NCBI GenBank assembly: GCA_027486835.1
Contig: JAIXOJ010000140.1
Coordinates: 1-34,218, forward strand
From: Chitinophagaceae bacterium
GTDB taxonomy: Bacteria > Bacteroidota > Bacteroidia > Chitinophagales > Chitinophagaceae
Length of the DNA stretch: 34,218 bases
Reading direction: 5' to 3'
Under the pieces are notes generated by a model. That model worked only from the letters and a program-made list of their open reading frames with translations. It was not told the DNA's origin and did no database searches. The position numbers were made by a program, and so were the translations under genes. This document shows positions 1 to 33,960 of this stretch, one piece after another; the first letter of the stretch is position 1; each line of letters begins with the position of its first letter.

Positions 1-126
1 AAATGGTCAGGCACCACAAGGAAATGCTATGTGTCCACTCGAAAATGGTCAGGCACCACAAGGAAATGCTATGTGTCCACTCAGAAATGGTCGGGGACCA
101 TAAAAAAACGCTCGGGGACCAGGTGC
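1..126. repeat. Tandem array A, 21-bp period (truncated by window edge)
   Basis: Six 21-bp units start at 1, 22, 43, 64, 85 and 106. Units 1 and 3 and units 2 and 4 are near-identical, so the array also reads as a 42-bp repeat. Units 5 and 6 are more diverged. Most units begin AAATG or AAACG and carry CCAC or ACCA near position 14-17. The array probably continues to the left. Because 21 is divisible by three, one plus-strand frame stays open (3-191) and reads as 14-residue repeats beginning MVRHHKEMLCVHSK. Nothing else supports translation, so I treat this as a DNA repeat. It is one of four arrays in the window with this period. Confidence 0.85.
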
Positions 127-627
127 TTGAGTGTTTAAGATTGGGTTTGAAGTATTTTAATCTGGGCCTCTGGCTTTTTTTCCAAGAATGAATTAAATCT
201 ATTGAGTTCCAAAGTTATTTTTTGTGGATTATTAGTGGCTAATCTTGGGTTATCCATTGATATTCATGGTGACATTGTATTTTTTGGGAAAGACGAATGT
301 TTACAAAGGGGTTCTATCCTAAATCGAATAATTTCTTGTACCCTCCAATTCTCAAGTAAGTATCACAAAAGTGGAGAGCGGAGGCAAGCCACCATAATTA
401 GTGCGTCTTGCCACCTCATTAATTGATGTTGACCCAATAAATTCGTGTACAAAAACGTTTTTCGCATAGAAGCTTCTTTTTAACTTTTATAGGGGTTTCA
501 AACCCTATAAAAGTTTAAGAAGGAGGCGCAACCCTTTTGCACGCAATAAGTTTGGCCTTTGAAAGATTGATTTGAAATAATTTTATTACTCCAACAAAAA
601 ACTAGAACCTACAACTAAAACCATCCA
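127..627. other. Non-coding stretch with a long imperfect hairpin
   Basis: No convincing gene was seen here. The only structure is at about 471-527: a perfect 13-bp stem (482-494 with 503-515, loop GTTTCAAA) flanked by further partial pairing of CTTCTT with AAGAAG. It lies about 110 bases past the stop of the minus-strand gene ending at 628 and could end or stabilise that transcript. It has no clear U-tract on either strand, so it is not a typical intrinsic terminator. Confidence 0.4.
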
Positions 628-2061
628 TTATTTAATCTGCCAATTGAGTGAAAAGCTAAAATTGGGAGTAAGTGTATAAGGAATATTGGTATTAATAGGA
701 GCAGTGAGGGGCATATTCACCTGCAAACCAAGCGCAATTTGCTTTATTTGATACTGCAATTCTAAGCCGGTTTTGAACACTAAAGGAGCTATCCGTTGGC
801 CAACTGAGCTAGATTTTTCGGTTTTATAGACACTGTCCTTTGCCACCTGATTGCCATTTTTAGTAATCGTGTTGTGCAGCCAACTATCATTGGTTTTCAA
901 GCCGCTAATGCTTGCCCCTATCCGCCACTTAGGCGCGAACAAGTACTGGTAAGTAAGTCCTGCTTCTAGGCCGCTTATCTGTTGTAAATAAACTGTTTCG
1001 GTATAGTTATTCTCCTGCTTTTGTTGAGATGCCTGATGAACAATAGTTTGGTAGCTTGATTTGCTTAACAGAATGGATTGCCCCAAATACAATTGCGCAA
1101 AAGTGTTTAATCGCAGTCCGATTCTATGCTTTGTCTGAATGTCTAAGCCCGCCCAAAACTGAGGCAATACCATCTGCAAATAGCGATCGGGCTTGTTGCT
1201 GCGATAAGGAGCAGAAAACTGGTGAAGCGGAACGTTCCACAACAACCCAAAATGGTATGGTTTCGTTCCTTTATTATTTACTAATGAGGCGGAATGCGTA
1301 GGCAAGCCACTCAATAAAGTATCTATGATTGCTTTGCTATAGGCAGTATAATTGGGTGGTGCGGTTGCTTGCCATCCAAATAATGCTACGGGTTCATTAG
1401 CAGTGTTAGCCAAATTGGAGGTTGATACCTTGGAAAGGCCAGTAACACCACTTGAATTTGTGGATACAGTTTTCTTCCAGTTGGTAAAACTGTCCACAGC
1501 TTCGCTTGCAATGGCTTTTGCAACACCCCTTTTAGCTACTAACGATGGGAGGCTGTTGAAGATTTTCTTAGGTGCTTTCAGATTTTCCTTCGCCTCGGAA
1601 TTTGGGGTTGTTCGCACATGCAGTGAGTTGCTAGAAGGAATGGCCTCTGTGTTAGCCAAATTAGCGTTGTTAAGGACCTGCACATTGCATTTTTGTTCAG
1701 TTGCATTTGGAAGTATGGCAGCATCATTCTGGGGATTATTGGACTTTTTTTCCAATGGTAATACCCCTTTTACAACCCTAGTATCAGCAGCAGTCACCTG
1801 TTTTTTCACAGGCGCATTGTTTTCTATGCTATTCGATTTTGTTACGATGGGTGAGGCATCATTATAGTGTTGTAACAATGCCCAAGAAGCAATTATAAGT
1901 ACAACACAAGCGGAGAAGCCCCACCAAAAAAAGATCCGCCTTTTTTCCCTTTTCCTTTGTTGCGCTTCGGCCTCTAAGGCGGGTTGTAAACTTGCCCAAG
2001 CTGTTTCAAAGGGGATGAATGGTGGCTTAGCACCGTTATTTGATTCCAAATTATTTTGCAT
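628..2061 (-). CDS. Single-pass membrane protein with barrel-like C-terminus; putative anti-sigma partner
   Basis: This is a 477-residue protein. A charged N-terminal cytoplasmic segment (about 1-45, ending in a KREKRR cluster) is followed by one membrane helix at about 44-63. A low-complexity Ser/Thr/Asn/Lys linker follows, and residues from about 260 alternate polar and aromatic positions as in outer-membrane beta-strands, ending in FSLNWQIK. The start codon overlaps the end of the upstream sigma-factor gene by 11 bases, so the two are translationally coupled. In Bacteroidota, an ECF sigma gene followed by a single-span protein usually means an anti-sigma pair. That role is inferred from position and topology; I do not recognise a named anti-sigma domain. 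The barrel reading is by eye and uncertain. Confidence 0.75.
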   Translation of the reverse strand: MQNNLESNNGAKPPFIPFETAWASLQPALEAEAQQRKREKRRIFFWWGFSACVVLIIASWALLQHYNDASPIVTKSNSIENNAPVKKQVTAADTRVVKGVLPLEKKSNNPQNDAAILPNATEQKCNVQVLNNANLANTEAIPSSNSLHVRTTPNSEAKENLKAPKKIFNSLPSLVAKRGVAKAIASEAVDSFTNWKKTVSTNSSGVTGLSKVSTSNLANTANEPVALFGWQATAPPNYTAYSKAIIDTLLSGLPTHSASLVNNKGTKPYHFGLLWNVPLHQFSAPYRSNKPDRYLQMVLPQFWAGLDIQTKHRIGLRLNTFAQLYLGQSILLSKSSYQTIVHQASQQKQENNYTETVYLQQISGLEAGLTYQYLFAPKWRIGASISGLKTNDSWLHNTITKNGNQVAKDSVYKTEKSSSVGQRIAPLVFKTGLELQYQIKQIALGLQVNMPLTAPINTNIPYTLTPNFSFSLNWQIK

Positions 2062-2611
2062 ACAGGTGGTTATTTATGGGTTCTTGTAGCATCGATTTCA
2101 ATTTGTTGCGGCCATCATTTAGGTGCCATTTTACCGTGCCTTCTTTCATTTCTAGGTTTTGGGCTATTTCTTTTATCAGCATTCCTTCCACATAAAATAA
2201 GCTGAAAACAGCCCTTGTAGTAAGGCTGAGTGCCTTTAAAAACTTAGCTACCCTCTCCTCCGATTCATTTATTAAAGGGTTTTGGTGCACTATTTCCACA
2301 TACATTTCTGAGGTAAACTCTTGAAACCGCATTACACTCTTTTTTTGCCTTACCAGCGATAATGCACTATTGCGCACTACCGCATATACCCAACCAAACA
2401 AATCGCCTTTGGCAGCATCAAAGGTTTCGATGCGTGTAAACACTTGCAGCATTCCGTTATTTAGAGCAGTGAGTATATCATGTTCATCATCAAAAAACTG
2501 ATGGCACAATGCAAAAAGCCGAGGATAAAACTGCTGATACAGTTTTTCCTGGCTTTTCCGGTCGAATTGTTTGCAACCGTGCAGTAGTGTTGAAAGATGA
2601 ACGTCTGTCAA
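2051..2611 (-). CDS. ECF-type RNA polymerase sigma factor
   Basis: This 186-residue protein has the two-domain sigma-70 ECF layout. Region 2 spans about 20-90 (YPRLFALCHQFFDDEHDI, then an F.GWVYAVVRN segment). Region 4 spans about 125-178 and includes a helix-turn-helix, IKEIAQNLEMKEGTVKWHL, that would contact the -35 region. It would direct RNA polymerase to a small regulon, probably including its own operon. The start is a TTG; no in-frame ATG or GTG occurs in the 30 bases upstream, and the N-terminus from here matches the family pattern (a LLHGCKQFDRKSQEKLY-type opening). It lies 75 bases after the lipoprotein gene and overlaps the next gene by 11 bases. Confidence 0.92.
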   Translation of the reverse strand: MTDVHLSTLLHGCKQFDRKSQEKLYQQFYPRLFALCHQFFDDEHDILTALNNGMLQVFTRIETFDAAKGDLFGWVYAVVRNSALSLVRQKKSVMRFQEFTSEMYVEIVHQNPLINESEERVAKFLKALSLTTRAVFSLFYVEGMLIKEIAQNLEMKEGTVKWHLNDGRNKLKSMLQEPINNHLYAK

Positions 2612-2686
2612 GATAGTTGTTTGAATGATGTATTATCAGGTAGAAATTTGCCTATAGACCTTTTTGAATCAAAACCATTATTGGTT

Positions 2687-3703
2687 CTATTGTAGTGTGA
2701 GCGGTCTAATGGTTACTTGCCCGTTGGTTGCAGGCCAGGTAAATTGATAAACACCAGAAGCTGTGACCGATAAGCTGCCTGAGTATGTTTTATTACCCAC
2801 TTGTACCGAAAAATCATAAGCCCCTACCCCAATGCTACTGAAACTATTTCTTGCAGTGGCGGGTGCAATAACCACTTGAGGTTCATTAGCCATATACACA
2901 CCACCATAACTAAGGGTATAAGCCTTATTGGTAAAGCTAGCTTGGGAAAGAATAATATCCGAAGTACTTTGATAAGGATAATTGGTAGAAGCGGCGATGG
3001 TCAACAATTTTCTGCCACTTTGGTCGGTTGAGAGCGAGGGGGTTAGCAGCAGCTTATCACCAAAAATAAAATCGGCGGTATCTTTTTGGGTATTGCTTGC
3101 GGTATCATTCAACCAAATCGTGCGGCTTTGTGTGTTAATACCGTCGTTCACGGTTACGGTGCCTGTGAACCCGTCTTTAAAACTGATCGATGCCGATAAC
3201 CTATCTGCTGCCAACACTACGCTTACTGCATTGCCCGAGGTAATCCAAGAAATATTGCGGCTTTTGGTATTAGTGATTTTAAAAAAGATAGATTCTTGTT
3301 GTTTCACGCCCACTACTTTGCTGGCCGAAAGCCCAAAAGCGAGGTTGGTATCTTGGTAATTGGTTGATAAAACCGTTAGTGAATAGGTAATTTGTTTGTT
3401 GGCTTTGTTTGTGGCAACAATTTGATAATTGCCCGCATTGGCAAAATAAAAAGTAGCATATATGCCTACCTTATTGATGGTTACCCCCACACTTGGGGTA
3501 ACTTTCCAATCAACACTTCCATTAGAACCGCTATCGCCAAAGGCAAGTAACAAGGGTTCGCTAATTCTGAGGTTGGGCAGTGATTCCGTTAAAACCTGCT
3601 CAGGGTTATTGTTGTCCAAGCTACTGCCATTGCCAGATTTGGTACAACCTGCTCCGACAAACAGCGCAATAATTAAAGCATAAAAAATGATAGTCGTCCG
3701 CAT
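2687..3703 (-). CDS. Lipoprotein with Ig/PKD-like modules
   Basis: An upstream in-frame ATG at 3724 exists, but I choose the ATG at 3703. It gives a standard lipoprotein signal peptide (MRTTIIFYALIIALFVGAGC) with the lipobox cysteine at residue 20. The mature protein begins with a Ser/Gly/Asn-rich linker. Two or three beta-rich modules follow, rich in Gly, Ser and aromatic residues, with PKD-like wording such as WKVTPSVGV and YQIVATNKAN. It is probably an outer-membrane-anchored surface or periplasmic protein. No enzyme motif was seen. It lies upstream of, and co-directional with, the sigma-factor pair, so it may belong to the same regulated unit. The specific function is unknown. Confidence 0.8.
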   Translation of the reverse strand: MRTTIIFYALIIALFVGAGCTKSGNGSSLDNNNPEQVLTESLPNLRISEPLLLAFGDSGSNGSVDWKVTPSVGVTINKVGIYATFYFANAGNYQIVATNKANKQITYSLTVLSTNYQDTNLAFGLSASKVVGVKQQESIFFKITNTKSRNISWITSGNAVSVVLAADRLSASISFKDGFTGTVTVNDGINTQSRTIWLNDTASNTQKDTADFIFGDKLLLTPSLSTDQSGRKLLTIAASTNYPYQSTSDIILSQASFTNKAYTLSYGGVYMANEPQVVIAPATARNSFSSIGVGAYDFSVQVGNKTYSGSLSVTASGVYQFTWPATNGQVTIRPLTLQ

Positions 3704-3810
3704 ATTAAAAGGTATAGTAAGCATTGAGAAATAGGTTGAAGGTAGCCAGGTATAAACGTGTAAATAAATTCAGCATTCGCTATATAGGATTAAGCGTTAA
3801 AAAATTACTT

Positions 3811-3848
3811 TGGAAAAAATACCCTTCCGTACCTGCACTACGGAAGGG
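3811..3848 (-). terminator. Intrinsic terminator for the large LRR gene
   Basis: A perfect 10-bp stem (3822-3831 with 3839-3848; arms CCCTTCCGTA and TACGGAAGGG) has a 7-base loop. Read on the minus strand it is followed by TATTTTTT, a typical U-tract. It lies about 200 bases past the stop of the minus-strand gene ending at 4050 and before the start of the next minus-strand gene, so it would separate the two transcripts. The rest of 3704-4049 shows no other feature. Confidence 0.65.
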
Positions 3849-4049
3849 GTTGTATAAAAAATAACCCTTGAAAAAGTAGCTACCCGCTATTCGTTAACTG
3901 TCCATAAATGGCCAATATTGCTCTATCAACCCTGTTCAAAAATGTCATTACAAAAAACAGCATTGATAGTCTTTTTTCTAAACACTCTTGTTGCATGATC
4001 AGCAATTTACGGCAGTTAACTATAGGCGGTGAGTGGTTTCAATGAAGGA

Positions 4050-7000
4050 TTATTGAATAAGGAGTTGTTGGTTGTTCAATTGACCATTGGTGTCAACTAT
4101 TTGCAATTGATATACACCTGTTGGTAATTGGAAAGTAAGTTGGTGTACTTCAGATGTCGAATCTGTTTTTTTAGTCCAAACCTTTTGCCCCAACTGATTA
4201 ATAATGGCCACGGAAGACACCCCTTTTCCACTCAACACAATGTTATGCTTAGCCGGATTCGGATAAATTACAAATGGTACAGAAGCGGCTTGACCTAGGC
4301 TCACCCATTTTGTTTCACTATAACTGATCTGACCGTCTTTGTCCACTATTTGTAAGCGATAATACAAACCTTTTAATCCTTTCCACTCCCTAAGCTTATT
4401 ATCTGCAAATTGATATGCCCCAGCTCCTTTTGCTTGCACATTGCCCACGTTTGAAAAGACTTGACCATCGGTGCTTCTTTGTACGATGAAATAGGCCGTG
4501 TTTGTTTCAGTGGCCGTAACCCATTCTGCATTGAATGCTAGCTCACCAGCCTTAACCATAAAGTTTCTTAGACTAACAGGTAATGTGGTACCCTTAATGA
4601 GGGTGGTAGCGGTGTTGGTAATAACTGGTTTATTGTAATCAAAAAATATAGCCGCTTTGTTGTTAACAACGGAACCAGCCGTAAGGGTGGATACTGGTTT
4701 TAATCTAAAAGACACAAAACCATTGCTTTTTAATTGGTTAGCGCCGCTATCCGGCAAATGGATGTCTAAAAACTCGAAGAAAATAGCGCCATTCTTTAAA
4801 ATCACATTGCAATTGTGGGAACTGCCAATCATCTGCAGCACATTGCTTTGTAATAAACTGCTCAGCGTATCGGCCACTACCACATTAAAGGCGGTATCAT
4901 TCCCCAAGTTTTGGAAATGGATGGTGTAATCAATAAACTGTCCATTATTCACCTGTAGGGTACTCAATTCTGGTGTGGCTTCTTTGCTGTTGGGGTCGTA
5001 ACTAGTTCTTATAGGTTGCTTAAAGGTGGTGGTTGCCAGTGTTGCGCCCCCAGAACCAACCAATGATTTTACCCAAAGTGTATCACCCAGTGTTGCTGAA
5101 GTCTTTACTGTAAAATAAAATTTATAATCATGAACTTCTCCTGGGGTAATCGTATCACCCGAGATGTTGATTACATTTCCTACCCTGTTGAAGGTTGCAG
5201 TATAAATATTCACCAGACTATCAAATCTTAACTTGGTACTATCAAAACTAAATTGGGGGTAGATGATTTTGGTTGTAGTACCCACATTGGATATGATGGT
5301 TGTGTAAGCAATGCCCCTTCCTGGGCGGGCGGTATTGGGGACACTTATGATTGCTGTATTAAAGCTATCCTTAACAATGGAGGTTTGAAGCGCAATGTCA
5401 GTTAATGTCAACTGGCTATTACTGGCCGTTAACGTAAACTTGCTGCTGTCTGGTATGGCACTGAAAAACGAAGGTGCTTGAGTATATAAGGTATAGCTGC
5501 CAATTGAATCGGTACTAATCACAAATTCACCTTTGCTATCCGTGAAGGCACTTTGGCCAGAATTTAAGGTTAGGCGTACATAAGGGCGGTAAAATTCACT
5601 GGCATCTTTCACGCCGTTTTTGTTCATGTCGGAAAATACTTTACCAAACACCAACGGGAATGCTTGACAGTGGTTTGAATTGTTGGTGATATTGCAATAA
5701 GGCAGATTGGAAGGAGTTACAGTCAATTTTGAAACAGTGTTAGGAATACAATTAATCTTAGTACCTGTTACAGTCAAACTAATTAAGCTATTGGGCAATT
5801 TTGGTAAGCAACTGAGGTTGGAATCCCCTTCGCAAATCAAAAGCTGCAACCGAAACATTGAATCCAAAGACGGCAAGTACGAAATAGGCGTAAACCCAAC
5901 TTTTAATATGCCAAGTCCGCGCGGCAATTTCAATGGTAAGGCACCAATAGGGTTGTTGCTGCAAAACAATATCCCAAGGGAGTCTGGCAACTTGGGTAAC
6001 GACTGGATATTGTTGAAAGAACAGTCGAGGAAAAAAACTGCAGAGTCTGGCAGTGCTGGGAGGTTTTGTATTTGGTTATTACTACAGAGCACTTCTGTAA
6101 CGCTATTAGGCAGTGTAGGCAAAGTAGTAAGGCTGTTGTAATTGCAATCCAAAATCTTTAATTTTTTTGGAAGAGAAGGCAATGTTGATAATTGGTTACT
6201 TGCACAATTAAAATTTATCAAAGAATCAGATAAACTAGGACAAACACTAAAATTATTGCTAGCTATGCTTAATATTTTAAGATTATTGGGTAATGCAGGT
6301 AGTTTACTTAAAAAATTGCCATCAACAACTAGAGAACTCAATTTATTGGAAAGTCTAGGAAGGGTGGTTAAATAGTTATTGGCCAAATTCAAATCAACCA
6401 GGTTTTTAAAATACTCAATACCGCTTACGCTTGTAATGGGTTTATTGTTAGAGAACTTAAGATTGGTTTCATTAACCACATCCGCACAAGTGGTGTCCAT
6501 CTGCCCTGCTCCATTAAAACATGCAGGATACTTAGCAATTAGCAAGTTTCTAAAGATGCTGTCGGGGATGTTTACGTAGGTACTAGGAATCAGTGTACAG
6601 CTTTTTGGATTAAATGAGCCATTGCAAACTGTAAAGGAAATTGATTGCTTGAATGTAGTGTCGGCGAAAACGCTCAATGAAGCTGGATAGTTAGGTAAGC
6701 AACTAATATTGTTTGTATCAATTGCCAATAGCATCATTGCCTTTGGTAAAACAGGTAAACAATACAAACTTGGATTGCCCCAGCATCGCAAATTGATTAA
6801 TGAGTCGGGGAGGCTTGGCAGTTTGGTAAGTTGATTATTCTCGCAATAAAGCCCAAACCTTGACAGTTTTGGCAAGGCCGGTAGGCTTTTTAATTTGTTA
6901 TTGCTGCAAACCAATGAGGTCAACGAGTCTGGCAAAGTGGGCAAGCTGGTAGCTAAATTATTAGCACAACTAAAGATTCGTAAACTTTTGAAATAGCCTA

Positions 7001-7220
7001 TACCTGTGAAGTCGGTAATTGATCTAGTGTTGGCCTGCATATTTTGAAGGGTAAGAACCCCTTTGCAAGTAGTATCCATTTGCTTAGCCCCATTGAAGCA
7101 AGCAGGTATTTGAGTAATTAAGTAATTTCTAAAATTACTATCGGGTATGCTTACGTACTGCCCATTTGCATTAAAGAAAGCCAAGCAGCAGAGGTATATT
7201 AATAATAGTTGCGTTTTCAT
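4050..7220 (-). CDS. Large secreted leucine-rich-repeat protein with T9SS sorting domain
   Basis: The open frame extends upstream to 7370, but the ATG at 7220 gives a clear signal peptide (MKTQLLLIYLCCLAFFNANG), so the protein is 1056 residues. Two LRR blocks (about 60-190 and 245-490) have 21-residue-type repeats of the form LPxLPDSLxxLxCSNNxL. Each is preceded by a similar module, IPDSxFRNxLI…PACFNGAxQMDTTC, so the N-terminal half contains an internal duplication. A prealbumin/SdrD-like domain follows at about 523-620 (VFSDMNKNGVKD). Next come DUF11-like beta domains with the YDPNSKEATPE motif near 740, an Fn3-like segment, and a C-terminal type A T9SS domain from about 983 (FVIYPNPAK…GVYQLQIV). 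It is probably exported through T9SS and attached to or released from the surface. LRRs suggest protein or glycan binding; the ligand is unknown. Confidence 0.93.
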   Translation of the reverse strand: MKTQLLLIYLCCLAFFNANGQYVSIPDSNFRNYLITQIPACFNGAKQMDTTCKGVLTLQNMQANTRSITDFTGIGYFKSLRIFSCANNLATSLPTLPDSLTSLVCSNNKLKSLPALPKLSRFGLYCENNQLTKLPSLPDSLINLRCWGNPSLYCLPVLPKAMMLLAIDTNNISCLPNYPASLSVFADTTFKQSISFTVCNGSFNPKSCTLIPSTYVNIPDSIFRNLLIAKYPACFNGAGQMDTTCADVVNETNLKFSNNKPITSVSGIEYFKNLVDLNLANNYLTTLPRLSNKLSSLVVDGNFLSKLPALPNNLKILSIASNNFSVCPSLSDSLINFNCASNQLSTLPSLPKKLKILDCNYNSLTTLPTLPNSVTEVLCSNNQIQNLPALPDSAVFFLDCSFNNIQSLPKLPDSLGILFCSNNPIGALPLKLPRGLGILKVGFTPISYLPSLDSMFRLQLLICEGDSNLSCLPKLPNSLISLTVTGTKINCIPNTVSKLTVTPSNLPYCNITNNSNHCQAFPLVFGKVFSDMNKNGVKDASEFYRPYVRLTLNSGQSAFTDSKGEFVISTDSIGSYTLYTQAPSFFSAIPDSSKFTLTASNSQLTLTDIALQTSIVKDSFNTAIISVPNTARPGRGIAYTTIISNVGTTTKIIYPQFSFDSTKLRFDSLVNIYTATFNRVGNVINISGDTITPGEVHDYKFYFTVKTSATLGDTLWVKSLVGSGGATLATTTFKQPIRTSYDPNSKEATPELSTLQVNNGQFIDYTIHFQNLGNDTAFNVVVADTLSSLLQSNVLQMIGSSHNCNVILKNGAIFFEFLDIHLPDSGANQLKSNGFVSFRLKPVSTLTAGSVVNNKAAIFFDYNKPVITNTATTLIKGTTLPVSLRNFMVKAGELAFNAEWVTATETNTAYFIVQRSTDGQVFSNVGNVQAKGAGAYQFADNKLREWKGLKGLYYRLQIVDKDGQISYSETKWVSLGQAASVPFVIYPNPAKHNIVLSGKGVSSVAIINQLGQKVWTKKTDSTSEVHQLTFQLPTGVYQLQIVDTNGQLNNQQLLIQ

Positions 7221-7503
7221 AATTGAAAAAATGAGGTGATTAATATTTAAAAGTAAATTGTTAGTAATGAAAAAAGAACAACCCCGGAGAAGTACAACAC
7301 CTTCTACGCAAATAATACTCAATAAGGTTGGGTAATTGTAAAAATAAAAGTAGGGGTGGTAAGTTAACAATTGAAATGAGGGTGCATGTACCTATCCATA
7401 AAATGTTGGCTTCTTTATGCTTACTTAGAGGAAAGTAACAGCTTGATAACCTTGAGCCATTTGATTTTATACACACTTTAACGATATGCAGTGAAACAAA
7501 CTG

Positions 7504-7511: not shown

Positions 7512-7539
7512 GAGGGTCTTCCATAAAAACTGTAAGCGT

Positions 7540-17778: not shown

Positions 17779-17971
17779 TCTATTTTTGTGTTGTTCTAAA
17801 ATGCCCTATAACTCATAAAAATCCGCAATTCAATTGCATCAATAAAACCAAAAATAGGCGCATTAATACATGTCTTGCAAGATTTCTACGTAGTGTTTAA
17901 ATTGCTTTAGTGTTTAGGAATTGTCGTAACCCCTAGGTTTGAAACCAATACAAAATTTCTCCAATCACTAC

Positions 17972-18351
17972 CGAGATACTTCTATCCCCAAGCGAGGTAC
18001 TTCCAATCCCCAAGTGAGAAATTTTTATCCCCAAGCGAGATACTTCTAATCCCCAACCGAGATATTCTAATCGCCAACCGAGATATTCTAATCCTCAATC
18101 GAGATACTTCTGTTCAAAAACTAGATACTTCTAATCCTCAACTGAGATATTCTAATCGCCAACCGAGATATTCTAATCGACACCGAGATTCATCTAATCG
18201 GCATCGAGATTCATCTAATCACCACCGAGATTCATCTAATCGACACCGAGATTCATCTAATCGGCACCGAGATTCATCTAATCGGCATCGAGATTCATCT
18301 AATCGGCATCGAGATTCATCTAATCACCACCGAGATTCATCTAATCACCAC
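17972..18351. repeat. Tandem array B, 20-22-bp period (18 units)
   Basis: Eighteen units, most exactly 21 bases, each begin with CGAGAT or a close variant. The first ten are diverged (CTTCTAATCCCCAAC or ATTCTAATCGCCAAC endings). The last eight, from 18184, are near-identical, each reading CGAGATTCATCTAATC plus a variable five-base end such as GGCAT, ACCAC or GACAC. That pattern suggests recent expansion at one end. There are no spacers, so it is not a CRISPR array. It lies between the end of the SNF2 operon and the cassette-like genes. Confidence 0.92.
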
Positions 18352-18451
18352 CCCCATTGTTCGTAGTATCCCACTAAACGTAGGTTTCCAGACTACACTT
18401 GAGTACTGGAGAGTCTCCCGATTTGAATTTTTATAGAAGTACCCCCGCGCA

Positions 18452-24942: not shown

Positions 24943-24984
24943 ATTGTTATTTATTTCTCCTTAGCGGAATACCGCCAACGCATA

Positions 24985-25982: not shown

Positions 25983-26045
25983 CATATCAACAAGGGGCTG
26001 AACTTCTATTTTACCTCTTGCTTAGTGCAGTTCAAAATTTTGCAC

Positions 26046-26276
26046 AACAAGGCATCTCAAATGCACAAGAGGCCATCTCAAATGCACAACAAGCCATCTC
26101 AAATGCGCAACAAGTCATCTCAAATGCGCAACAAGCCATCTCAAATGCACAACAAGCCATCTCAAACGCACAATAGGCTATCTCAAACGCAGAACAAGCA
26201 ATCTCAAATGCACAAAAAGTCATCTCAAATGCACAACACGTCCCCGCAAAATCACAACATGTCCCTTCAAATGCGG
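26046..26276. repeat. Tandem array C, 21-bp period (11 units)
   Basis: Eleven 21-bp units begin AACAAGCCATCTCAAATG or a close variant and end in CAC or CGC; the last two are diverged, and a 24-base degenerate unit follows. All units keep exact length, so frames stay open on both strands. The plus frame 26025-26375 (GTG start) reads as heptads of the type MHNKPSQ; the minus frame 26032-26223 reads CCAFEMA heptads. Either could be translated, but the two-strand openness is what a 21-bp DNA repeat without stop triplets gives by itself. The array lies between two convergent genes. The remaining spacer 26277-26403 holds nothing recognisable. Confidence 0.92.
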
Positions 26277-26403
26277 TTTAACCTCCCCTCTCAATTTCAG
26301 AACAAATTATTGCCCCTTAAATGGTTAAATATGAATAGCCGCCGCAGGCAAAACCCTTGGATTTCAATAGTGTAAGTCACTGTTCAAATGAATTAAAATA
26401 AAT

Positions 26404-26454: not shown

Positions 26455-27030
26455 CTACTGTAAAGCATCCCCCAAAAAATCTTTTAAAATATCCTCTGTA
26501 GCAACACAGGCCTCTTGCAGGTTTTCGTTGATGACGATTTTGTTGAAATGGTGCTTAAACGAAATTTCGTAGCTAGCCTTGTTGATTCTTGTTTGTAAGC
26601 TTTCCTCCGTTTCTGTTCCTCTGCTGGCCAATCTTATTTTTAATGCATCTACACTTGGCGGTTCAATAAACAAGCTTAAAGATTGTTGCAAATATTGGTT
26701 CTGCACATGGATAGCTCCTTTTACATCAATATCCAGCATAGGAATTTTGCCAGAAGCCCAAATGTTGCTAATCTCTTCTTTTAAAGTGCCATAATAAGTG
26801 CCTTCATACACCATTTCCCATTCAATAAATGCTTGTTGCTCAATCTTTTTCAAAAAATCTTCCACCGACAAAAAATGGTAGTCAACGCCATTGGTTTCAT
26901 GAGTGCGCTGTTTTCTAGTAGTAGCCGATATAGAAAAAGACAGCTTTTTATACTTGCCTAGTAAATACTTAGTGATAGACGTTTTGCCCGCGCCAGAAGG
27001 GGCTGTAATAATGATGAGTTTATTTTCCAT
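26455..27030 (-). CDS. gmk: Guanylate kinase
   Basis: This 191-residue enzyme phosphorylates GMP to GDP with ATP and is essential for GTP and dGTP supply. The P-loop APSGAGKTS is at residues 10-18. The GMP-binding region SISATTRKQRTHETNGVDYHFLS follows, then EWEMVYEGTYYGTL, DIDVKGAIHV and the lid-region RLASRGTETEESLQTRI, all in the standard order. The length is typical of bacterial Gmk. It stands apart from its neighbours, with array C downstream and a 195-base featureless gap upstream (27031-27225 lies on its 5' side next to the CDGSH gene). In Bacteroidota gmk is often next to nadD or a YicC-like gene; neither is seen here. Confidence 0.97.
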   Translation of the reverse strand: MENKLIIITAPSGAGKTSITKYLLGKYKKLSFSISATTRKQRTHETNGVDYHFLSVEDFLKKIEQQAFIEWEMVYEGTYYGTLKEEISNIWASGKIPMLDIDVKGAIHVQNQYLQQSLSLFIEPPSVDALKIRLASRGTETEESLQTRINKASYEISFKHHFNKIVINENLQEACVATEDILKDFLGDALQ

Positions 27031-27225
27031 AGTATTTATGCTATAGTCTGCTTTGGGGATGTAAGGGTAACCTAAATATATATTGACTCAGAAAATGAAC
27101 AGTTGAGAACTGATGGGTTAAATGATCCGTTAATGCCATTACATTGTACTTTTTAACTAAAACAGTTATTTGCCATTTAGCTACATGTACGTTGAATGTA
27201 TCACCAGATTCCCTACGATTTTAAT

Positions 27226-27498
27226 TTACAGGGATTTATGACTGCCATCGCAAAATGGTGGATTTTTCGTCTGCTTACAATTGCATAACCATACTTCTCC
27301 ATCTTCCTCGGCAGTAAATTTTAAACTCTTAAATGGCATCACCACTTGCCCTTCTACTTCTGTTGCAAGCGATTTATGTTTCCCATCACAAATAGGATTT
27401 TTGTCGCTCAAACCACAGGTACACCAAGCATAGGTTTTACCTTTTTCTACTTGAAAACCATTAGGTTTGTTGTCATACACTTTTGGAAACTCACTCAT
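27226..27498 (-). CDS. CDGSH iron-sulfur domain protein (two motifs)
   Basis: This 90-residue protein contains two CDGSH-type [2Fe-2S] sites: CTCGLSDKNPICDGKH (about 28-43) and CNCKQTKNPPFCDGSH (about 72-87). Each has the three-Cys, one-His ligand set C-x-C-x(8)-C-x-x-x-H. The double-motif form without a membrane anchor is the MitoNEET-like class found in many bacteria. Such proteins are linked to redox sensing or iron-sulfur transfer, but their partner here is unknown. There is no neighbouring gene of related function. Confidence 0.93.
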   Translation of the reverse strand: MSEFPKVYDNKPNGFQVEKGKTYAWCTCGLSDKNPICDGKHKSLATEVEGQVVMPFKSLKFTAEEDGEVWLCNCKQTKNPPFCDGSHKSL

Positions 27499-27687
27499 AA
27501 TTTGGGAATAATATTTAAAAACACTTCAAGACCAACGAAGGCAACGAATTAAGGGTAAAATGAGCAATCATTCTTGCATATAGTTTATTAGGCTAAAAAA
27601 AATGAAAACAAAGCCAGAAAATATTTTCACAAAAAGCCCAATCAGATAACTATTTTCGTCCCCACAATTTTTTTAAATAAATTAACG

Positions 27688-28839
27688 ATGAGTGAACAAA
27701 AAAAAGTAATGGTAACGGGTTGCTTTGACCTAATGCATAGTGGACATGTGGCATTTTTAAACGAGGCCAAGAAACTCGGGAAAGTGTATGCCTGCATCGG
27801 CAATGACGAGAATGTTTTTCAATTAAAAGGTAGGTACCCAGTTAACCATCAGTATGAGCGTAAATACATGCTTGAAAATTTGGCATCAGTTACCGAGTGC
27901 AAAATCAATAAAGGATTTGGCATCATTGATTTTTTAGAAGAGATTTCAGAAATAAAACCCGATGTTTTTTTGGTAAATGAAGATGGTTCTACACCAGAGA
28001 AAGCACGTATTTGTGCAGAAAGGGGCATTGAGTACAAGGTTTTTCACCGAGTACCTCATGGCGACCTTCCTGTCCGTTCTACCACAAGCTTAAGAACAGA
28101 ATGCTTAATTCCTTTTAGAATTGATTTAGCAGGTGGCTGGTTAGATCAACCTTTTGTGTCTAAATATTATCCTGGGCCCGTACTCACTATTTCTATTGAG
28201 CCAACAATGGAATTTAACAACCGCAGTGGCATGTCCTCTAGCACTAGAAATAAAGCCATTGAACTTTGGAGAACGGAAATTCCTACAGGTGACAGAGAAA
28301 AATTGGCCAAAGTGCTGTTTACTTACGAAAATCCTCCAGGCACTGAAATAATTGCAGGTTCACAAGATGCTTTGGGTATTGTGTTACCCTGCCTCAACAA
28401 ACTGAGCTACAACGGAGGTTATTGGCCAGAAAAGATTGAATCAATCACTGATGAAGCAACCATTAGTTGGATCGAACAGCATTTGTTTTTGGTTACGCTA
28501 GGTCCAAGGCATTCTGGTTATTCAGTACTAGACAATACAAGCATTGGCGAAGCGGGTGCAAAAGCATTGGCAGATGCGGCAATTGAATGCTGGGATGCTA
28601 TTCAGGCCAAAGACGTACAAGCTTTTGGTAAGGCAATGACAGCGGCTTTTGAAGCCCAAATAAGTATGTTCCCTAACATGGTAAATGAAGACATCCTTAG
28701 TCAAATTGAAAGCTATAAAAGCAAAGTGGCCGGTTGGAAATTAAGCGGTGCCGGCGGCGGTGGCTACTTAGTATTCGTTGCAGATAAGCCACTTGAAAAT
28801 GCCATTCAAGTAAAGATTAGGAGAAAAGATACCAACTAG
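27688..28839 (+). CDS. Fused cytidylyltransferase-like and GHMP-kinase-like sugar enzyme
   Basis: This is a 383-residue protein of two parts. Residues 1-135 are a nucleotidyltransferase of the cytidylyltransferase/RfaE type with the signature TGCFDLMHSGH and its HxGH-type histidines (17 and 20). A short linker VRSTTSLRTE follows. Residues about 135-383 have GHMP-kinase features: an N-terminal IPFRIDLAGGWLDQPFV, a phosphate loop region, and the C-terminal KLSGAGGGGYLVFV. Such proteins would phosphorylate a sugar and attach a nucleotide to it, as HldE does with the modules in the opposite order and a different kinase fold. The usual GHMP P-loop PxxxGLGSSA appears only as SGMSSSTRNKA, so kinase activity is uncertain. 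The sugar is unknown. A TATTTTCG motif at 27651-27658 may be the promoter. Confidence 0.88.
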   Translation: MSEQKKVMVTGCFDLMHSGHVAFLNEAKKLGKVYACIGNDENVFQLKGRYPVNHQYERKYMLENLASVTECKINKGFGIIDFLEEISEIKPDVFLVNEDGSTPEKARICAERGIEYKVFHRVPHGDLPVRSTTSLRTECLIPFRIDLAGGWLDQPFVSKYYPGPVLTISIEPTMEFNNRSGMSSSTRNKAIELWRTEIPTGDREKLAKVLFTYENPPGTEIIAGSQDALGIVLPCLNKLSYNGGYWPEKIESITDEATISWIEQHLFLVTLGPRHSGYSVLDNTSIGEAGAKALADAAIECWDAIQAKDVQAFGKAMTAAFEAQISMFPNMVNEDILSQIESYKSKVAGWKLSGAGGGGYLVFVADKPLENAIQVKIRRKDTN

Positions 28840-28929
28840 TTAAGTGTTAGGTGTTTATCGGATAATTAGTTAGGTTGACTTAATAAATAAAACATTAAAA
28901 AAACCAATGACTACTTAGTCATCACTTTC

Positions 28930-28989
28930 TGAATCGAAACTTACTGTAGAGACGCGATTAATCGCGTCTCTACAGTAAGTTTCGATTCA
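28930..28989. repeat. 60-bp perfect palindrome
   Basis: Left arm 28930-28959 and right arm 28960-28988/9 are exact reverse complements with no loop, including TGAATCGAAACTTACTG and the core GTAGAGACGCGATT|AATCGCGTCTCTAC. The core closely resembles palindromes I remember from many cyanobacterial and Bacteroidota intergenic regions. It lies about 90 bases after the nucleotidyltransferase/kinase gene. The rest of the 347-base gap is AT-rich with no gene. Confidence 0.95.
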
Positions 28990-29186
28990 ATAGCTAGGTA
29001 GTACGAAAGCGAATTGAAACTAACAATTAAGTGCTGAATTTATTGTGGCAAAAAAACTTAGAGTTAAGAAATAGCTTTTCAAGTATTGGTTTCATTACTT
29101 GTTAACCCAAACTACCTGCCACTTACCACCTACTACTAACAACTTTCCTTTATTGTAATTTATTCATTTTTTAAACCAATCTAATT

Positions 29187-30131
29187 ATGTCTATCCCTGT
29201 TGTTGATCTAGCTGATTTTTTGAGTGGCGATTCCGCTAAAAAAGACGCATTTGTTCAGTCGTTAGGCGCGGCTTACGAGCAAGTAGGCTTTGTAGCAGTA
29301 AAAAACCACGGACTTTCGGATGAACTTATTGCCAAGTTGTATAAATATGTAGAAACTTTTTTTTCATTACCAACCGAAGAAAAGAAACGTTATGAAATAC
29401 CAGAACTTGCAGGCCAAAGAGGCTTTACAAGCTTCGGGAGGGAACATGCAAAAGGAAGTGATGCCCCAGACTTAAAAGAGTTTTTTCAGTTTGGACAAAT
29501 GGTAGAAGATGGAGACTCTGTTAAAGAAGTTTATCCAGATAATGTTCAGGTAACCCAATTGCCAGAGTTTAACCCCACTCTAGAAAATGCTTACAAAATG
29601 TACGAAAAAACGGGTGCAGCATTGTTGCAAGCCATCGCTTTATATCTGAATTTGGAGGAGCATTATTTTGATGAACATATCCATAATGGTAATTCTATCT
29701 TACGCTGTATTCATTATCCTCCGATAACTGTAGCTCCTAAAAATGCTATTCGTGCCGAACAGCATGAGGATATTAATTTGATCACCCTTTTAGTAGGTGC
29801 GTCAGCGGATGGATTGGAAATTTTAAATAAGCAGGGTGAATGGATTGGGGTTACGGCATTGCCCGAACAAATAGTAGTGAACGTAGGCGATATGCTCCAA
29901 AGACTAACCAATAATAAACTGCGCAGCAGCACCCACAGAGTGGTAAATCCTCCAAAAGAAAAATGGCACACCCCAAGGTTTTCTATGCCTTTCTTTCTGC
30001 ATCCACGAAGCGAAATGAGTCTAACCTGCTTGGAAAACTGTATTGATGAATCGCATCCAAAAGCTTTTGAGGACATTACCGCAGGGGAATATTTAGATGA
30101 ACGATTACGGGAAATTGGTTTGAAAAAATAA
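29187..30131 (+). CDS. 2-oxoglutarate/Fe(II)-dependent oxygenase, isopenicillin-N-synthase-like
   Basis: This 314-residue protein begins SIPVVDLADFLSGD, the standard N-terminal domain of the DIOX_N type. The iron ligands are His193 and Asp195 (in EQHEDINLITLL) and His250 (in RSSTHRVVNP). Arg264-x-Ser266 (PRFSMPFF) would bind the 2-oxoglutarate carboxylate. All are spaced as in isopenicillin N synthase and plant 2OG oxygenases. These enzymes hydroxylate or desaturate small molecules; the substrate here is unknown. The gene appears alone, followed by a long hairpin before the chromate transporter gene. Confidence 0.92.
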   Translation: MSIPVVDLADFLSGDSAKKDAFVQSLGAAYEQVGFVAVKNHGLSDELIAKLYKYVETFFSLPTEEKKRYEIPELAGQRGFTSFGREHAKGSDAPDLKEFFQFGQMVEDGDSVKEVYPDNVQVTQLPEFNPTLENAYKMYEKTGAALLQAIALYLNLEEHYFDEHIHNGNSILRCIHYPPITVAPKNAIRAEQHEDINLITLLVGASADGLEILNKQGEWIGVTALPEQIVVNVGDMLQRLTNNKLRSSTHRVVNPPKEKWHTPRFSMPFFLHPRSEMSLTCLENCIDESHPKAFEDITAGEYLDERLREIGLKK

Positions 30132-30220
30132 ATAGTTTAAGCCTGATCATTGGAATTTAGTTGAATTAAATTCCTCTCTGTTTATAGGCAGAAGCCTAGA
30201 CATAAGAACTATTAAATCCT

Positions 30221-30266
30221 AAAAGGGAAGTAAGTGGCTGTTAAAATTTGCCACTACTTCCCTTTT
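30221..30266 (+). terminator. Long-stem terminator after the oxygenase gene
   Basis: AAAAGGGAAGTA-A-GTGGC (30221-30238) pairs with GCCAC-TACTTCCCTTTT (30250-30266), a 17-bp stem with one bulged A and an 11-base loop. A short T-rich stretch follows. It separates the oxygenase from the transporter gene and could work in both directions. Confidence 0.55.
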
Positions 30267-30345
30267 GTTATGGATGCTATAGTTGGTCTGGTTTACTTTC
30301 CCCCGAATAATTTGTCGCCTTCCATTTCTAAGCTTACCTGTTACA

Positions 30346-31605
30346 ATGGTTCTACTCCGTCATATCCCTTTTTTGCGTGCTGTTTTTTGGCACAGTATCA
30401 CGGCCTTTGGTGGCCCGCAGGGGCATTATGGAATGATGATGAAAACATTTGTTGAACAACGAAGGGACGTAACCGAGCAAGAATTGATGGATTTCGTCAG
30501 TTTTTGCAACATGCTTCCAGGTGCATCTTCCACCCAAACCCTTACCCTCATTGGCTATAAACGAGGCGGCATTCCCTTAGCAATTTTAACGCTGGCAATC
30601 TGGATAACCCCTGCCTGTCTTATAATGGGAGGCTTTTCTTTTCTGCTAGATTATTATGATGACCAAGCAGTAAGCATTCAAATATTTCATTTTATTCAAC
30701 CCATGGCGATAGGATTTATAGCCTATTCTGCCAAACGGGTGTTTGGTTTAGCCATTACCAATACCATTACCAGAGTTATTCTTTTCGCCTCAACTATCAT
30801 CACCTATCTATGCTTCAAAACGCCATGGGTATTTCCTTTGGTAATCATAGCCGCAGGCATTGCCACTAATTTCAGCGATAAACGGATTCCTCAAAAGGGT
30901 ATTAGACCCAAACAAATTAAATGGGGCAACATGTTGTTGTTTTTGGTGCTGTTTGGAATAGCAGGTTATTTATCCGAAACTTCCACAAGAGAAAATTGGA
31001 AAAGCCACAAAGCCTTCAACCTTTTTGAAAACAACTACCGTTTTGGTAGTTTGGTTTTTGGTGGTGGTGATGTGCTGATGCCCATGATGTACGAACAATT
31101 TGTAGTTCGCCCAACAACAGATTATACCAAGTCAACAGGAAGGGATGTTTTACGAATGAAAAAAACAGATTTTTTAACTGGTTCGGGTATCGTTAGAGCC
31201 ATACCTGGCCCTGTATTTTCAATTGGTGCATTTACTGGTGGTATGGTTTCAAGGGATGATAATACTATCGGTACTCAATTGTTAGGTTGTTTCTTAGGTG
31301 GCGTGGGTATTTTTCTGCCAAGTCTTTTGTTTGTCCTATTTTTCTTTCCCGTTTGGCATAATTTAAAGCGATATGCAGTTATATACCGGTCATTAGAAGG
31401 AATCAACGCCGCGGTGGTGGGTTTGATGGCTGGTGCCACTTGTTACCTTACTACCGACATCATTCAATTCGATGTTTCCAATCATTTAATCGACATTATA
31501 GCAGATGTAGGGGTGATTGTATTGACATTTTCTGCTTTACAGTTTTCTAAAATCCCTTCCCCTTTTATCGTATTGGCTTGTATTGGTCTAGGCTTGGTTC
31601 TATGA
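30346..31605 (+). CDS. chrA: ChrA-family chromate transporter
   Basis: This is a two-domain CHR-family membrane protein of 419 residues from the ATG at 30346; the frame is open upstream to a TTG at 30283, but the shorter start gives the usual [19 protein letters not shown] opening. CHR motifs are present in both halves: [13 protein letters not shown] and [16 protein letters not shown] in the first; [11 protein letters not shown] and [18 protein letters not shown] in the second. About ten to twelve membrane helices are expected. The long form exports chromate by a proton-coupled mechanism in characterised members. No chrB or chrR is nearby, so physiological substrate is uncertain; sulfate or another oxyanion is possible. 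Confidence 0.92.
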
Positions 31606-31696
31606 TCAGTTATAAGCTATGGAATATTGACACAATAAATTCAGTATTACAGAATTGGGTTCAATATTGTTTCCTATCTATAATATTTACCACTTT

Positions 31697-32617
31697 CTAG
31701 TTCACTTTCAGGTATGGAGATATTTTTTGGTAAAGAGGTTCTTTTATAAACACAATCTTTTTGATGTCTTCCACTTGGTGATAATTTCCGTGCAATTGCC
31801 GATACAACACCAATGCTTTGGCCAAGTTTTTATCGATATACGGATGTGATGACAACTCGTTTTCCTGTGCTGTATTCAAGTTTATTTGGGTAATTGTTGG
31901 GTTGTCTAACGTACAAAACAAACTGATTTGCTGCATGGCAGTATCGTTCATACCAAAGGTTTCTTTCAATTGGTCTAACCTTAAGAAGCCACCCAGCTTC
32001 TCTCTATACTTAATTATTTTGTAAGGAAGGCCATTCGTCATACCTGCCATAAATTTCAAATCATTGGCAGTTGCTTTGTTAATATCTATTTGAGTGGGTT
32101 TAGTTGGGCTGTTGCTAGGAGCTTGGTTTGATTTGAAATTGAATTTATCGGTGGTAGATATTGAAGCAATTTTGATGTAAGGAATCATTCGTTCGGCCTC
32201 TTCAGGTTGTAACCCCCATATTTTTCGAATGTCTTCCGGTTGTTTGAATTTTCCGCCTTTGTTTCGATAGTTGATAATCGTGTGAATGGTTTTATCCCTC
32301 AACCCTAATTTCTTCCACCCTTGTTCATCCACTGTATTTGGGTCAAAGAAAAAGGGTTCGAATACCGTCGCTTGTTTATCTGCAAATGTTTGATGAGGGT
32401 AGTTAGCTGTACTTGATTTTGCTGGTTCCGAAACTTCTGCTTGTTCCAATAAAGAATCTAGTTGCCATTGCGATTCCTCATCCACAGTAATGGTGGCATT
32501 TTTAGTAGGATAAACATAAGGCAATACCAAAAAGAATACAATCAACAAGGAAACCACAATAGCGGCATTCCGCTCTTTACGAGAAAAGGTGAGATAGTCT
32601 TTTATCCATTTTTTCAT
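31697..32617 (-). CDS. Membrane-anchored helix-hairpin-helix protein (ComEA-like)
   Basis: This 306-residue protein has one membrane helix at about 18-35 (AAIVVSLLIVFFLVLPYVY) and a periplasmic linker. Three helix-hairpin-helix repeats follow: about 110-155 (GLRDKTIHTIINYRNKGGKF), 175-225 (INKATANDLKFMAGMTNGLP) and 240-305 (INLNTAQENELSSHPYIDKN). HhH pairs bind DNA without sequence specificity; ComEA proteins use them to capture DNA during natural transformation. Three repeats behind a single anchor are common in Bacteroidota proteins of this group. The gene follows the PhnP-like hydrolase gene by 19 bases on the same strand. A DNA-uptake role is possible but not shown by its neighbours. Confidence 0.88.
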   Translation of the reverse strand: MKKWIKDYLTFSRKERNAAIVVSLLIVFFLVLPYVYPTKNATITVDEESQWQLDSLLEQAEVSEPAKSSTANYPHQTFADKQATVFEPFFFDPNTVDEQGWKKLGLRDKTIHTIINYRNKGGKFKQPEDIRKIWGLQPEEAERMIPYIKIASISTTDKFNFKSNQAPSNSPTKPTQIDINKATANDLKFMAGMTNGLPYKIIKYREKLGGFLRLDQLKETFGMNDTAMQQISLFCTLDNPTITQINLNTAQENELSSHPYIDKNLAKALVLYRQLHGNYHQVEDIKKIVFIKEPLYQKISPYLKVN

Positions 32618-32636
32618 GCCCTTAATTTTTGCTTCA

Positions 32637-33419
32637 TTAAAAATAACCTTTAACCACTAGACCATCATAAGCAAGGCTCATGCCTTTGGGTAGTTCTGCA
32701 TTAATCACATCATTGAGCCCCAATTGATGGCCTATATGTGTAAAATAAGTCTGCTCTGCATTTACTTCTCTAGCTAGTTGCACCGCTTGATCTAAAGTAA
32801 AGTGCGAATGGTGACCGTCTTTTCGGAGTGCGTTTACAATTAAAATTTCAGAACCCATAATTTTTTCTTTTTCTGTTTCGTCAATTCTGTTAGCATCGGT
32901 AATGTAAGTAACGCTACCGATTCTGTAACCATAAACAGGCATTTTCAGGTGCCAAACTAAAATAGGTATAATAGGTATTTCCCCTATTGTAAAAGGATTC
33001 AAATTTATTTGATGCAGTTTTATATCTGGTATTCCTGCAATTTTTTTTTCGCTGAAGGCATAATAAAACTCCCTGCGCAGATGTTCTTCTGTTAGCGCAT
33101 TTGCATAAACGTGAATGGTTTTGTCATAAATAAAATTGTAGGGTCTCACGTCGTCAAGACCACCGATATGGTCTTTATGAGGGTGAGTAAATACAACAGC
33201 GTCCAAGTCTTGATTATCTATTCGCAACATCTGTTGGCGAAAATCGGGAGTGGTATCAACAACCAAAGTTGTTGTTGTCGATTTTACCAAAATACTACTA
33301 CGTAAACGGTTGTCTTTTACATTGTTTGATTTACACACTTCACAAGCACACCCAATCATTGGCACGCCAGAACTGGTGCCTGTTCCCAACAGCGTAACAG
33401 TAAACGGGTTATTTTTCAC
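32637..33419 (-). CDS. PhnP-like metallo-beta-lactamase-fold phosphodiesterase
   Basis: This 260-residue protein opens with LLGTGTSSGVPMIGCACEVC, the typical start of the PhnP group, including a Cys24-x-Cys26-x2-Cys29 cluster that holds a structural zinc. The catalytic metal motif HPHKDH (His79, His81, Asp83, His84) follows, then VTYITDAN and the C-terminal ligand region THIGHQLG. PhnP opens cyclic ribose phosphates in phosphonate breakdown; with no phn genes nearby a related cyclic phosphodiester substrate is likely. The start codon is GTG. An in-frame TGA lies two codons upstream, so no longer start is possible. It is likely cotranscribed with the HhH gene. Confidence 0.92.
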   Translation of the reverse strand: MKNNPFTVTLLGTGTSSGVPMIGCACEVCKSNNVKDNRLRSSILVKSTTTTLVVDTTPDFRQQMLRIDNQDLDAVVFTHPHKDHIGGLDDVRPYNFIYDKTIHVYANALTEEHLRREFYYAFSEKKIAGIPDIKLHQINLNPFTIGEIPIIPILVWHLKMPVYGYRIGSVTYITDANRIDETEKEKIMGSEILIVNALRKDGHHSHFTLDQAVQLAREVNAEQTYFTHIGHQLGLNDVINAELPKGMSLAYDGLVVKGYF

Positions 33420-33423
33420 GGTT

Positions 33424-33431
33424 CAAAAATA
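33424..33431 (-). promoter_or_regulatory. Possible -7 element directly at the PhnP-like start
   Basis: On the minus strand TATTTTTG lies only 5 bases before the GTG start codon. If used, transcription would begin about at the start codon, giving a leaderless or near-leaderless mRNA. No -33 element is visible, so chance is a fair alternative. Confidence 0.25.
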
Positions 33432-33610
33432 AGTGGCTTTGCGAATGGAAGGCTTGTTAAGTAAAGGGTTGCCATTATTTTAGGTGTAATAAAAAGGAAG
33501 AGTTGTTTTGAATGAATAGGCAGTTAGAATTATCGATCAATCAACCATGGCATTTCCACTCCAATATAGGTAAAGCGCAAATCAAAACCCTTGATTGAGC
33601 AAATCAGTAT

Positions 33611-33639
33611 CAGGTGGTTGAGCTTGTCGAAACCACCTG
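33611..33639. repeat. REP-like hairpin
   Basis: CAGGTGGTT pairs perfectly with AACCACCTG around an 11-base loop. Read on the minus strand it contains GGTTTCGACAAGCTCAACC, a word I recall from small palindromic repeats in several bacterial phyla. It lies between the PhnP-like gene and array D. Confidence 0.7.
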
Positions 33640-33659
33640 TACAATTCTTAACTTAATGA

Positions 33660-33960
33660 CATTGAGAACTAGGGCTTCATTACTCAAAATTGGTCTTGCT
33701 TATTGAATAATCAGTTGTCATTACTCAATAATCTGTCTTGGATACTCATTAATCAGTCTTGGATATTGAGTAATGCAGTTTGGATACTCACTAATGCGTA
33801 ATGGATACTCAATAAACAGTCTGGATACTCACTAATGTGGAGCGGATACTCAATAAACAGAGTGGATACACAATAATCAGTCTTGGATATTGAGTAATGC
33901 AGTTTGGATACTCAATAAACAGTCTGGATACTCACTAATGCGTAGTGGATACTTAATAAG
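33660..33960. repeat. Tandem array D, 20-21-bp period (about 14 units)
   Basis: From 33660 the units are 21 bases, with a few of 20. Most read GATACTCAATAA or GATACTCACTAATG followed by a CAGT or TGGAG-type tail and GGA. Two units (33764 and 33888) instead carry TATTGAGTAAT, nearly the reverse complement of ATTACTCAATA, so neighbouring units can pair as hairpins. The occasional 20-base units break reading frames, which argues against this array being translated. It lies in the divergent region before the right-edge promoter. Confidence 0.9.

Follow-up and report, generated by a model that had tools for sequence, protein, structure and literature searches.

Intergenic tandem arrays of many unrelated sequences share a 21-bp unit in a Chitinophagaceae genome and its genus

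The DNA considered here, referred to below as the window, spans contig JAIXOJ010000140.1 from end to end (34,218 nucleotides; contig C207 in our numbering). The contig comes from assembly GCA_027486835.1 of a Chitinophagaceae bacterium, an assembly that comprises 6,398,453 bases in 219 contigs. It carries four tandem arrays of short units (Table 1). An earlier note on the sequence had picked out these arrays and drawn attention to their common period, and all four were recovered by Tandem Repeats Finder (TRF). The limits given in the note were accurate within about 5 bases, except that the first array, which had been run on to 126, was found only to 100, the rest being degenerate, and the fourth starts at 33677 instead of 33660. 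Array 2 does lie between co-directional open reading frames (ORFs) and array 3 in a convergent gap, between a pseudouridine synthase gene on the forward strand and a guanylate kinase gene on the reverse strand, but the "window edge" at which array 1 had been placed is in fact the end of the contig. The same contig stops 259 bases past array 4, which the earlier note had placed in a divergent gap. Related or similar stretches lie elsewhere in the genome: an array like array 1 on contig C7 (L261, 12326), relatives of array 2 at the ends of contigs 11, 50, 110 and 204, an inverted relative of array 3 near the end of contig C168, and a stretch related to array 4 at the end of contig C113. Array 2 contains 22-bp variants in its left part, the right part being more uniform; its relatives occur in its own genome only, and its sequence has no match in 12 congeners.

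Table 1. Tandem arrays of the window, with the open frame that spans one of them
Feature	Position	Strand	Description
Array 1	1..100	.	Period 42, 2.4 copies; each unit a pair of diverged 21-mers (52% alike); truncated at the contig end (TRF)
Array 2	17970..18352	.	About 18 copies of 21 bp (TRF rows 17970-18350 and 18151-18352 merged)
Array 3	26041..26274	.	Period 21, 11.1 copies; convergent gap (TRF)
Open frame over array 3	26025-26375		116 aa
Array 4	33677..33959	.	About 13 imperfect copies of 21 bp; additional periods of 41-42 and 103 (TRF)

The wider occurrence of such arrays was examined by TRF in stretches, the window included, that total 1,324,709 bases, or 20.7% of the genome. (This genome is designated G000 and its sampled stretches L###; other genomes are numbered from G001 on.) The choice of stretches was not random: contigs 11, 50, 110 and 204 were picked for their matches to array 2, and contigs 168 and 113 for those to arrays 3 and 4; further contigs were picked for matches to one protein, and the remainder by contig number or length. 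Among the 137 arrays with a score of at least 80, 58 have a period of 21, 18 a period of 42 and seven a period of 41, while periods of 40 (two), 20 (two), 22 (one) and 63 (one) are scarce. With periods limited to 12-70 and copy numbers to three or more, 21 accounts for 57/96 arrays and 42 for 16/96, against 2/96 for 20 and 1/96 for 22. Measured locally, the spacing of units is 21 in 424 of 450 votes. Most of the period-42 arrays belong to the same phenomenon, as their halves are related 21-mers: in 18 of 24 the best self-match is at a shift of 21, where mean identity is 0.49, compared with 0.23-0.29 at shifts of 1 to 20. Even low-copy duplications favor 21 (eight, against one each for 19, 20 and 22). 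No array of 31 or 32 bp was found in the sample and none of 10 or 11 bp at a score of at least 80, and those of 10 bp are few at the loosest cut-off (three with at least 3.2 copies). The excess of 21-bp periods is thus genome-wide, and the outcome that the earlier note would have taken as a sign of coincidence, no excess over other lengths, is not what was found. Chance as the source of the excess is ruled out by these period counts.

In total, 1.66% of the sampled bases lie in arrays of the 21 type. Contig C23 (156.6 kb), which was first picked by number and later tiled for its length, has eight arrays of period 21, 41 or 42, a density at which the whole genome would hold some 330. Arrays of this type also stand at 13 of the 46 contig starts and 11 of the 36 contig ends viewed. 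Since contigs begin and end inside arrays, the assembly evidently breaks at them, and their true number and length are probably higher.

What is repeated differs from locus to locus. When 62 arrays were compared, they collapsed into 47 unit families, and no common motif was found in these with all rotations and both strands considered (information 6.58, against 6.57 ± 0.16 in 15 shuffles). Nor are the units unusually palindromic (5.31 against 5.17 ± 0.11 pairs), and they show no internal similarity at 7 or 10 bp, the value at a shift of 7 being 0.252 and those at other shifts 0.23-0.30. Together with the period counts, this bears out the claim that one unit length is common to unrelated sequences. 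Some families do recur at several loci, inverted copies included. In four pairs (L007/L020, L132/array 3, L019/L202 and L149/L210) the match is as good at one 21-bp shift as at any other, as separate expansion would leave it, while L013/L146 and array 4/L133 match at one shift only, as after block duplication. Among same-family pairs, flanks match on both sides in L013/L146 only.

The 42-bp arrays had raised the suspicion that hairpin units might be a general rule, but for the 21-bp arrays this is ruled out. Over 68 arrays of the 21 type the mean folding z was -0.98, and 14 of them rank above 95% of permuted units in folding (taking the better strand); 13 of the 14 have periods of 40-62 and one a period of 21. 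None of the window's four arrays reaches that mark (z -0.6 to 0.8). Two arrays, L015 (1-236) and L208 (19611-20000), consist of alternating 21-mers with co-located stems and compensated changes between the halves (p < 0.005 each). They are the only two of 28 period-42 arrays with compensated stems, the mean number of pairs kept being 3.11 vs 2.57. No known structured RNA was recognized either: the window and four other array-bearing stretches (93,465 bases) had no Rfam match.

Copies within an array are related in a nearly star-like manner: identity is 0.85 between neighbors and still 0.81 ten copies apart, a pattern in keeping with a burst as well as with recurrent exchange. Substitutions favor A+T: C to T changes amount to 5.3% and G to A changes to 3.8%, while the opposite changes, T to C and A to G, amount to 2.4% and 2.3%. 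The arrays nevertheless have a G+C content of 0.430, compared with 0.352 in their flanks and 0.393 in coding DNA, and exceed their flanks in 71 of 89 cases (Wilcoxon p 2.4e-10). An excess of G+C despite A+T-leaning mutation would fit GC-biased conversion between exchanging copies. Of 76 arrays, 29 contain indels, for the most part of a single base. Indels at most 16 bp apart mostly cancel (22 against 6), whereas for those farther apart 10 alternate and 27 have the same sign, partly due to L133; unit length is thus held locally, while phase along the array can drift. L133 itself (547-1383) has about 40 copies, with a 20-bp unit every two to four copies. Column conservation follows a rhythm of 10.5 bp in 42 families (z 4.2), in the 35 families of this genome (z 4.9) and in 10 families from the last-sampled stretches (p 0.015).

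The arrays are found outside genes: all but one lie clear of called genes both in the first sample (68/69) and in a larger one (84/85), counts that are biased by a crude gene caller, which discards ORFs that are more than 40% array (and which missed the pseudouridine synthase next to array 3, thereby entering that gap as co-directional in the first sample). Array-bearing gaps comprise 24 co-directional, 12 divergent and 3 convergent ones; compared with other gaps of at least 300 bp (168, 47 and 27, respectively), they show no clear preference, and the earlier note was right that the arrays are not simply terminators. Of the gene starts that flank arrays, 0/48 are within 100 bp of the array, and of the gene ends 5/30. 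Other repeats share the non-coding DNA. A MITE (miniature inverted-repeat transposable element)-like element of about 92 bp with inverted ends of 20-22 bp is matched up to 19 times in non-coding DNA of the first 976-kb sample (for example L195 6929-7449, L202 4759-5467 and L206 18623-18814 in G000), and another element, of about 140 bp, up to 11 times. Heptamer repeats of 20-80 bp (L217 2096-2178, L220 2141-2180 and L034 1454-1493, for example) often lie close to the start or end of a gene, at a distance of about 10 bp or less, family-wide; several of their units contain TAA, so that stop codons would fall in every frame.

Judged by a helicase-like protein, the closest named relatives of this genome are MAGs that carry the labels Chitinophagaceae, Segetibacter, Ferruginibacter and Chitinophagales. 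Shared 31-mers equate the congeners G003 and G006 with the MAGs 338R_metabinner_42 and Jr-11may16-263, each labeled Chitinophagaceae. Within the genus the arrays are widespread but not fixed in place. In 549,765 bases from 11 congeners, 27 of the 41 arrays with a score of at least 80 are of the 21 type (here periods of 20-22, 40-43 or 63), and they come from seven of the genomes. No such array at this score was found in G001, G003, G005 and G009, each of which was represented by only 10-20 kb, although G003 has one lower-quality array adjoining its guanylate kinase gene. Beyond the genus, 399,860 bases from nine other genera of the family contained no array near 21 bp with a score of at least 70, while arrays of 7-10 bp are present. 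In 1.51 Mb drawn more widely, from other lineages, there were two arrays (at least 3.2 copies) of period 21 or 42; G013, from another family, has two period-41 arrays in 90 kb, and none was found in 120 kb of G014 and G015. The earlier note had suggested looking for arrays of different sequence in orthologous gaps. In the flanks compared, arrays are mostly missing: the 3' flank of the homolog of an array-2 neighbor gene has none in 6/6 congeners with this flank in view, and only 1/11 flanks of guanylate kinase homologs has one, with a sequence different from array 3. (These are flanks of homologous genes, and no more than candidate orthologous gaps.) Within the samples taken, the arrays are confined to the genus and turn over fast between species. 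As a description, a pattern that is real, strong and restricted to the genus in these samples is close to certain.

Why should so many unrelated sequences be repeated at one length? The observations themselves establish a length step of 21 bp, its independence of sequence and a location outside genes. Tentatively, we favor the reading that these are intergenic minisatellites that are amplified and homogenized in steps of two helical turns, whatever their sequence. Any short non-coding sequence could then become the unit of an array, and duplication and homogenization would proceed by 21 bp, two turns of B-DNA, so that arrays of unrelated sequence would have one period and diverged pairs of units would appear as 42. 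One source of the step might be misalignment of copies that share a helical face, during replication or recombination, and recurrent exchange would presumably keep the copies alike. A genus-specific factor, such as a polymerase, a recombination protein or a nucleoid protein, may favor the step. The bolder proposal, that a genus-specific activity measures out two helical turns and creates or preserves tandem copies by length alone, as a sequence-blind DNA ruler that would seed unrelated minisatellites all over the non-coding DNA, strikes us as possible but somewhat unlikely.

Several observations weigh against the two-turn step. Copies of 30 tested units that might have served as seeds or targets were sought outside arrays, and none was found in the 1.32-Mb sample. 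Isolated ungapped steps of 20 and 22 are seen as well, and the register drifts in L133 547-1383 (about 20.7 bp per unit) and in L009 (about 21.5). The excess of G+C is weak in the congeners (0.389 against 0.348; 27 arrays, p 0.052) and is not specific to 21, as arrays of other periods in this genome are also G+C-rich (0.409, n = 38). The 10.5-bp rhythm of conservation is absent from seven congener families (z -1.4) and weak in 20 indel-free arrays (p 0.07); it is therefore suggestive only, and could be an alignment artifact. Family-wide, non-coding DNA outside arrays has a weaker rhythm of 7, 14 and 21. The helical basis put forward in the earlier note thus fits in that 21, 42 and 63 occur and 31 or 32 bp does not, but it is unproven in view of the phase drift and of 3 × 7 as another way to arrive at 21. 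As the agent of the 21-bp step, the protein binding every second turn that the earlier note raised is a conjecture. A product of a reverse transcriptase (a diversity-generating retroelement, a retron or a group II intron) is disfavored, as PF00078 is missing from four of the five array-bearing genomes tested: in a search of 11 genomes at E 0.001 there was no match in this genome, G004, G006 and G007, all of which bear arrays, and one in G012. The number of HU genes is ordinary, two here and 2-4 in the other 10 genomes searched. The best HU-like match scores 92 bits here, compared with 108-115 in four array-bearing congeners; HU may have diverged in this genome, or the assembly may lack its usual copy.

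The chief rival to stepwise amplification is selection for bent or phased DNA, in which arrays would be kept because tandem 21-mers bend coherently on one face, and would serve as spacers or as places where nucleoid proteins act. Curvature was predicted with a wedge model, as the ratio of contour to end-to-end length and with provisional wedge parameters, and 21 bp was the most curved of the lengths tried with random units (1.50, against 1.10 for 20 and 1.16 for 22). Real consensuses are also slightly more curved than permuted ones (1.69 vs 1.47), with 60% above their own null median, and conservation follows 10.5 bp in the units of this genome. The median curvature of the real arrays, on the other hand, is 1.16, not above the 1.20 of random tandem 21-mers. 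More tellingly, the model gives 1.32 for 11 bp, 1.26 for 32 bp and 1.20 for 10 and 31 bp, all above the 1.16 of 42 bp, yet 42 is common and those lengths are rare or absent. This lack of 31- and 32-bp arrays, scarcity of 10-bp arrays and abundance of 42-bp arrays is the main argument for an exact 21-bp step over selection for curvature. Phased DNA would also sit poorly with arrays that are not kept between species and with indels that, beyond 16 bp, go uncompensated. We consider this explanation unlikely, if a serious one. Spread of arrays or units by mobile elements of the MITE-like or REP/BIME (repetitive extragenic palindrome/bacterial interspersed mosaic element)-like kind, followed by expansion, would account for the families that occur at several loci, also inverted, and it is in keeping with the MITE-like elements that are common in the same gaps and with the two 42-bp families whose hairpins were kept through compensated changes. 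It is nevertheless improbable. The families mostly differ in sequence, only one pair shares flanks on both sides, and inverted repeats flank 0/79 arrays (alignment score at least 16; mean 8.01, against 8.20 for mismatched flanks). RAYT-type transposases (PF01797), present in 12 of 13 genomes of the genus, are not enriched here, with four copies against 0-8 across 60 genomes of the family.

Two further explanations derive 21 from seven. Arrays might have grown from the 7-bp non-coding repeats of the family, with 21 as the third multiple: many array periods are multiples of 7, and matches at lags 7, 14 and 21 are in excess outside arrays here, in the congeners and in other genera as well. Those other genera, however, have the 7-bp rhythm without the 21-bp arrays, and the units show no self-similarity at a shift of 7 beyond that at other shifts, which leaves a heptamer origin distinctly improbable. 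Alternatively, the unit could be seven codons, the arrays encoding proteins of heptapeptide repeats; this reading, for which the earlier note gives only the count of seven codons, has in its favor that 21 = 3 × 7 and that array 3 lies inside an open frame. That frame has no Pfam match, and although all 43 of 43 period-21 units can be read as an open frame, so can permuted units (42.9 of 43). Conservation lacks a 3-bp rhythm (z -0.4, 42 families), indels break the frame in more than a third of the arrays, and all but one of the arrays lie outside called genes. Coding capacity is thus disfavored, and very improbable as the source of the unit length.

How do these arrays relate to known systems? 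In the titles and beginnings of abstracts of the open-licence papers searched, no sequence-independent class of 21-bp minisatellites in bacteria was found, in agreement with the earlier note, which knew of no described system that would match. The closest system is BrickBuilt of Porphyromonas gingivalis, a MITE with 23-nt tandem units, a leader, a tail and small inverted-repeat ends, in 19 copies (PMC4596501). Like the present arrays, it belongs to the Bacteroidota, has units of similar length without spacers and occupies many loci, always intergenic (PMC4596501). BrickBuilt, however, is one sequence family with inverted ends, whereas here there are many unrelated sequences, the unit is 21 and inverted repeats do not flank the arrays. 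For prokaryotic genomes, phased A-tracts and a helical periodicity of about 10-11 bp are described (PMC3940949); the likeness lies in a length tied to the helix, the difference in that theirs is a rhythm of dinucleotides and ours tandem arrays of one unit (PMC3940949). In lake bacteria, including Planctomycetes, intergenic tandem repeats are reported to lie behind non-coding deletions (PMC9426551). CRISPR arrays are ruled out, as the units are contiguous, without unique spacers, and the spacing equals the unit length. As head-to-tail units of 10-60 bp without spacers, the arrays found by TRF have the layout of bacterial minisatellites. Minisatellite or VNTR (variable-number tandem repeat) loci, as used in multiple-locus VNTR analysis, are tandem, coding or noncoding, variable between strains and of mixed unit lengths; the difference here is one dominant length in this genome and genus. 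REP/BIME sequences with their RAYT are likewise intergenic, and their palindromic units recall the hairpin subset of the 42-bp arrays, but here no sequence is common to the arrays, hairpins are lacking from most of those with period 21 and RAYT genes are not in excess. The STRR heptamers of cyanobacteria are similar in being non-coding and tandem, with 21 equal to three heptamers, and differ in that no internal 7-bp similarity exists in the present units.

Tandem duplication is a main source of genome change, and it is still an open question how the length of the copied unit is determined. A 21-bp unit across dozens of unrelated sequences, in a genus whose sampled sister genera are without it, makes the length of that step testable, since some difference in gene content between neighboring genera should alter the step. 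If, on the other hand, the arrays are kept for their shape, they would be natural elements of phased DNA in which the sequence is free to vary.

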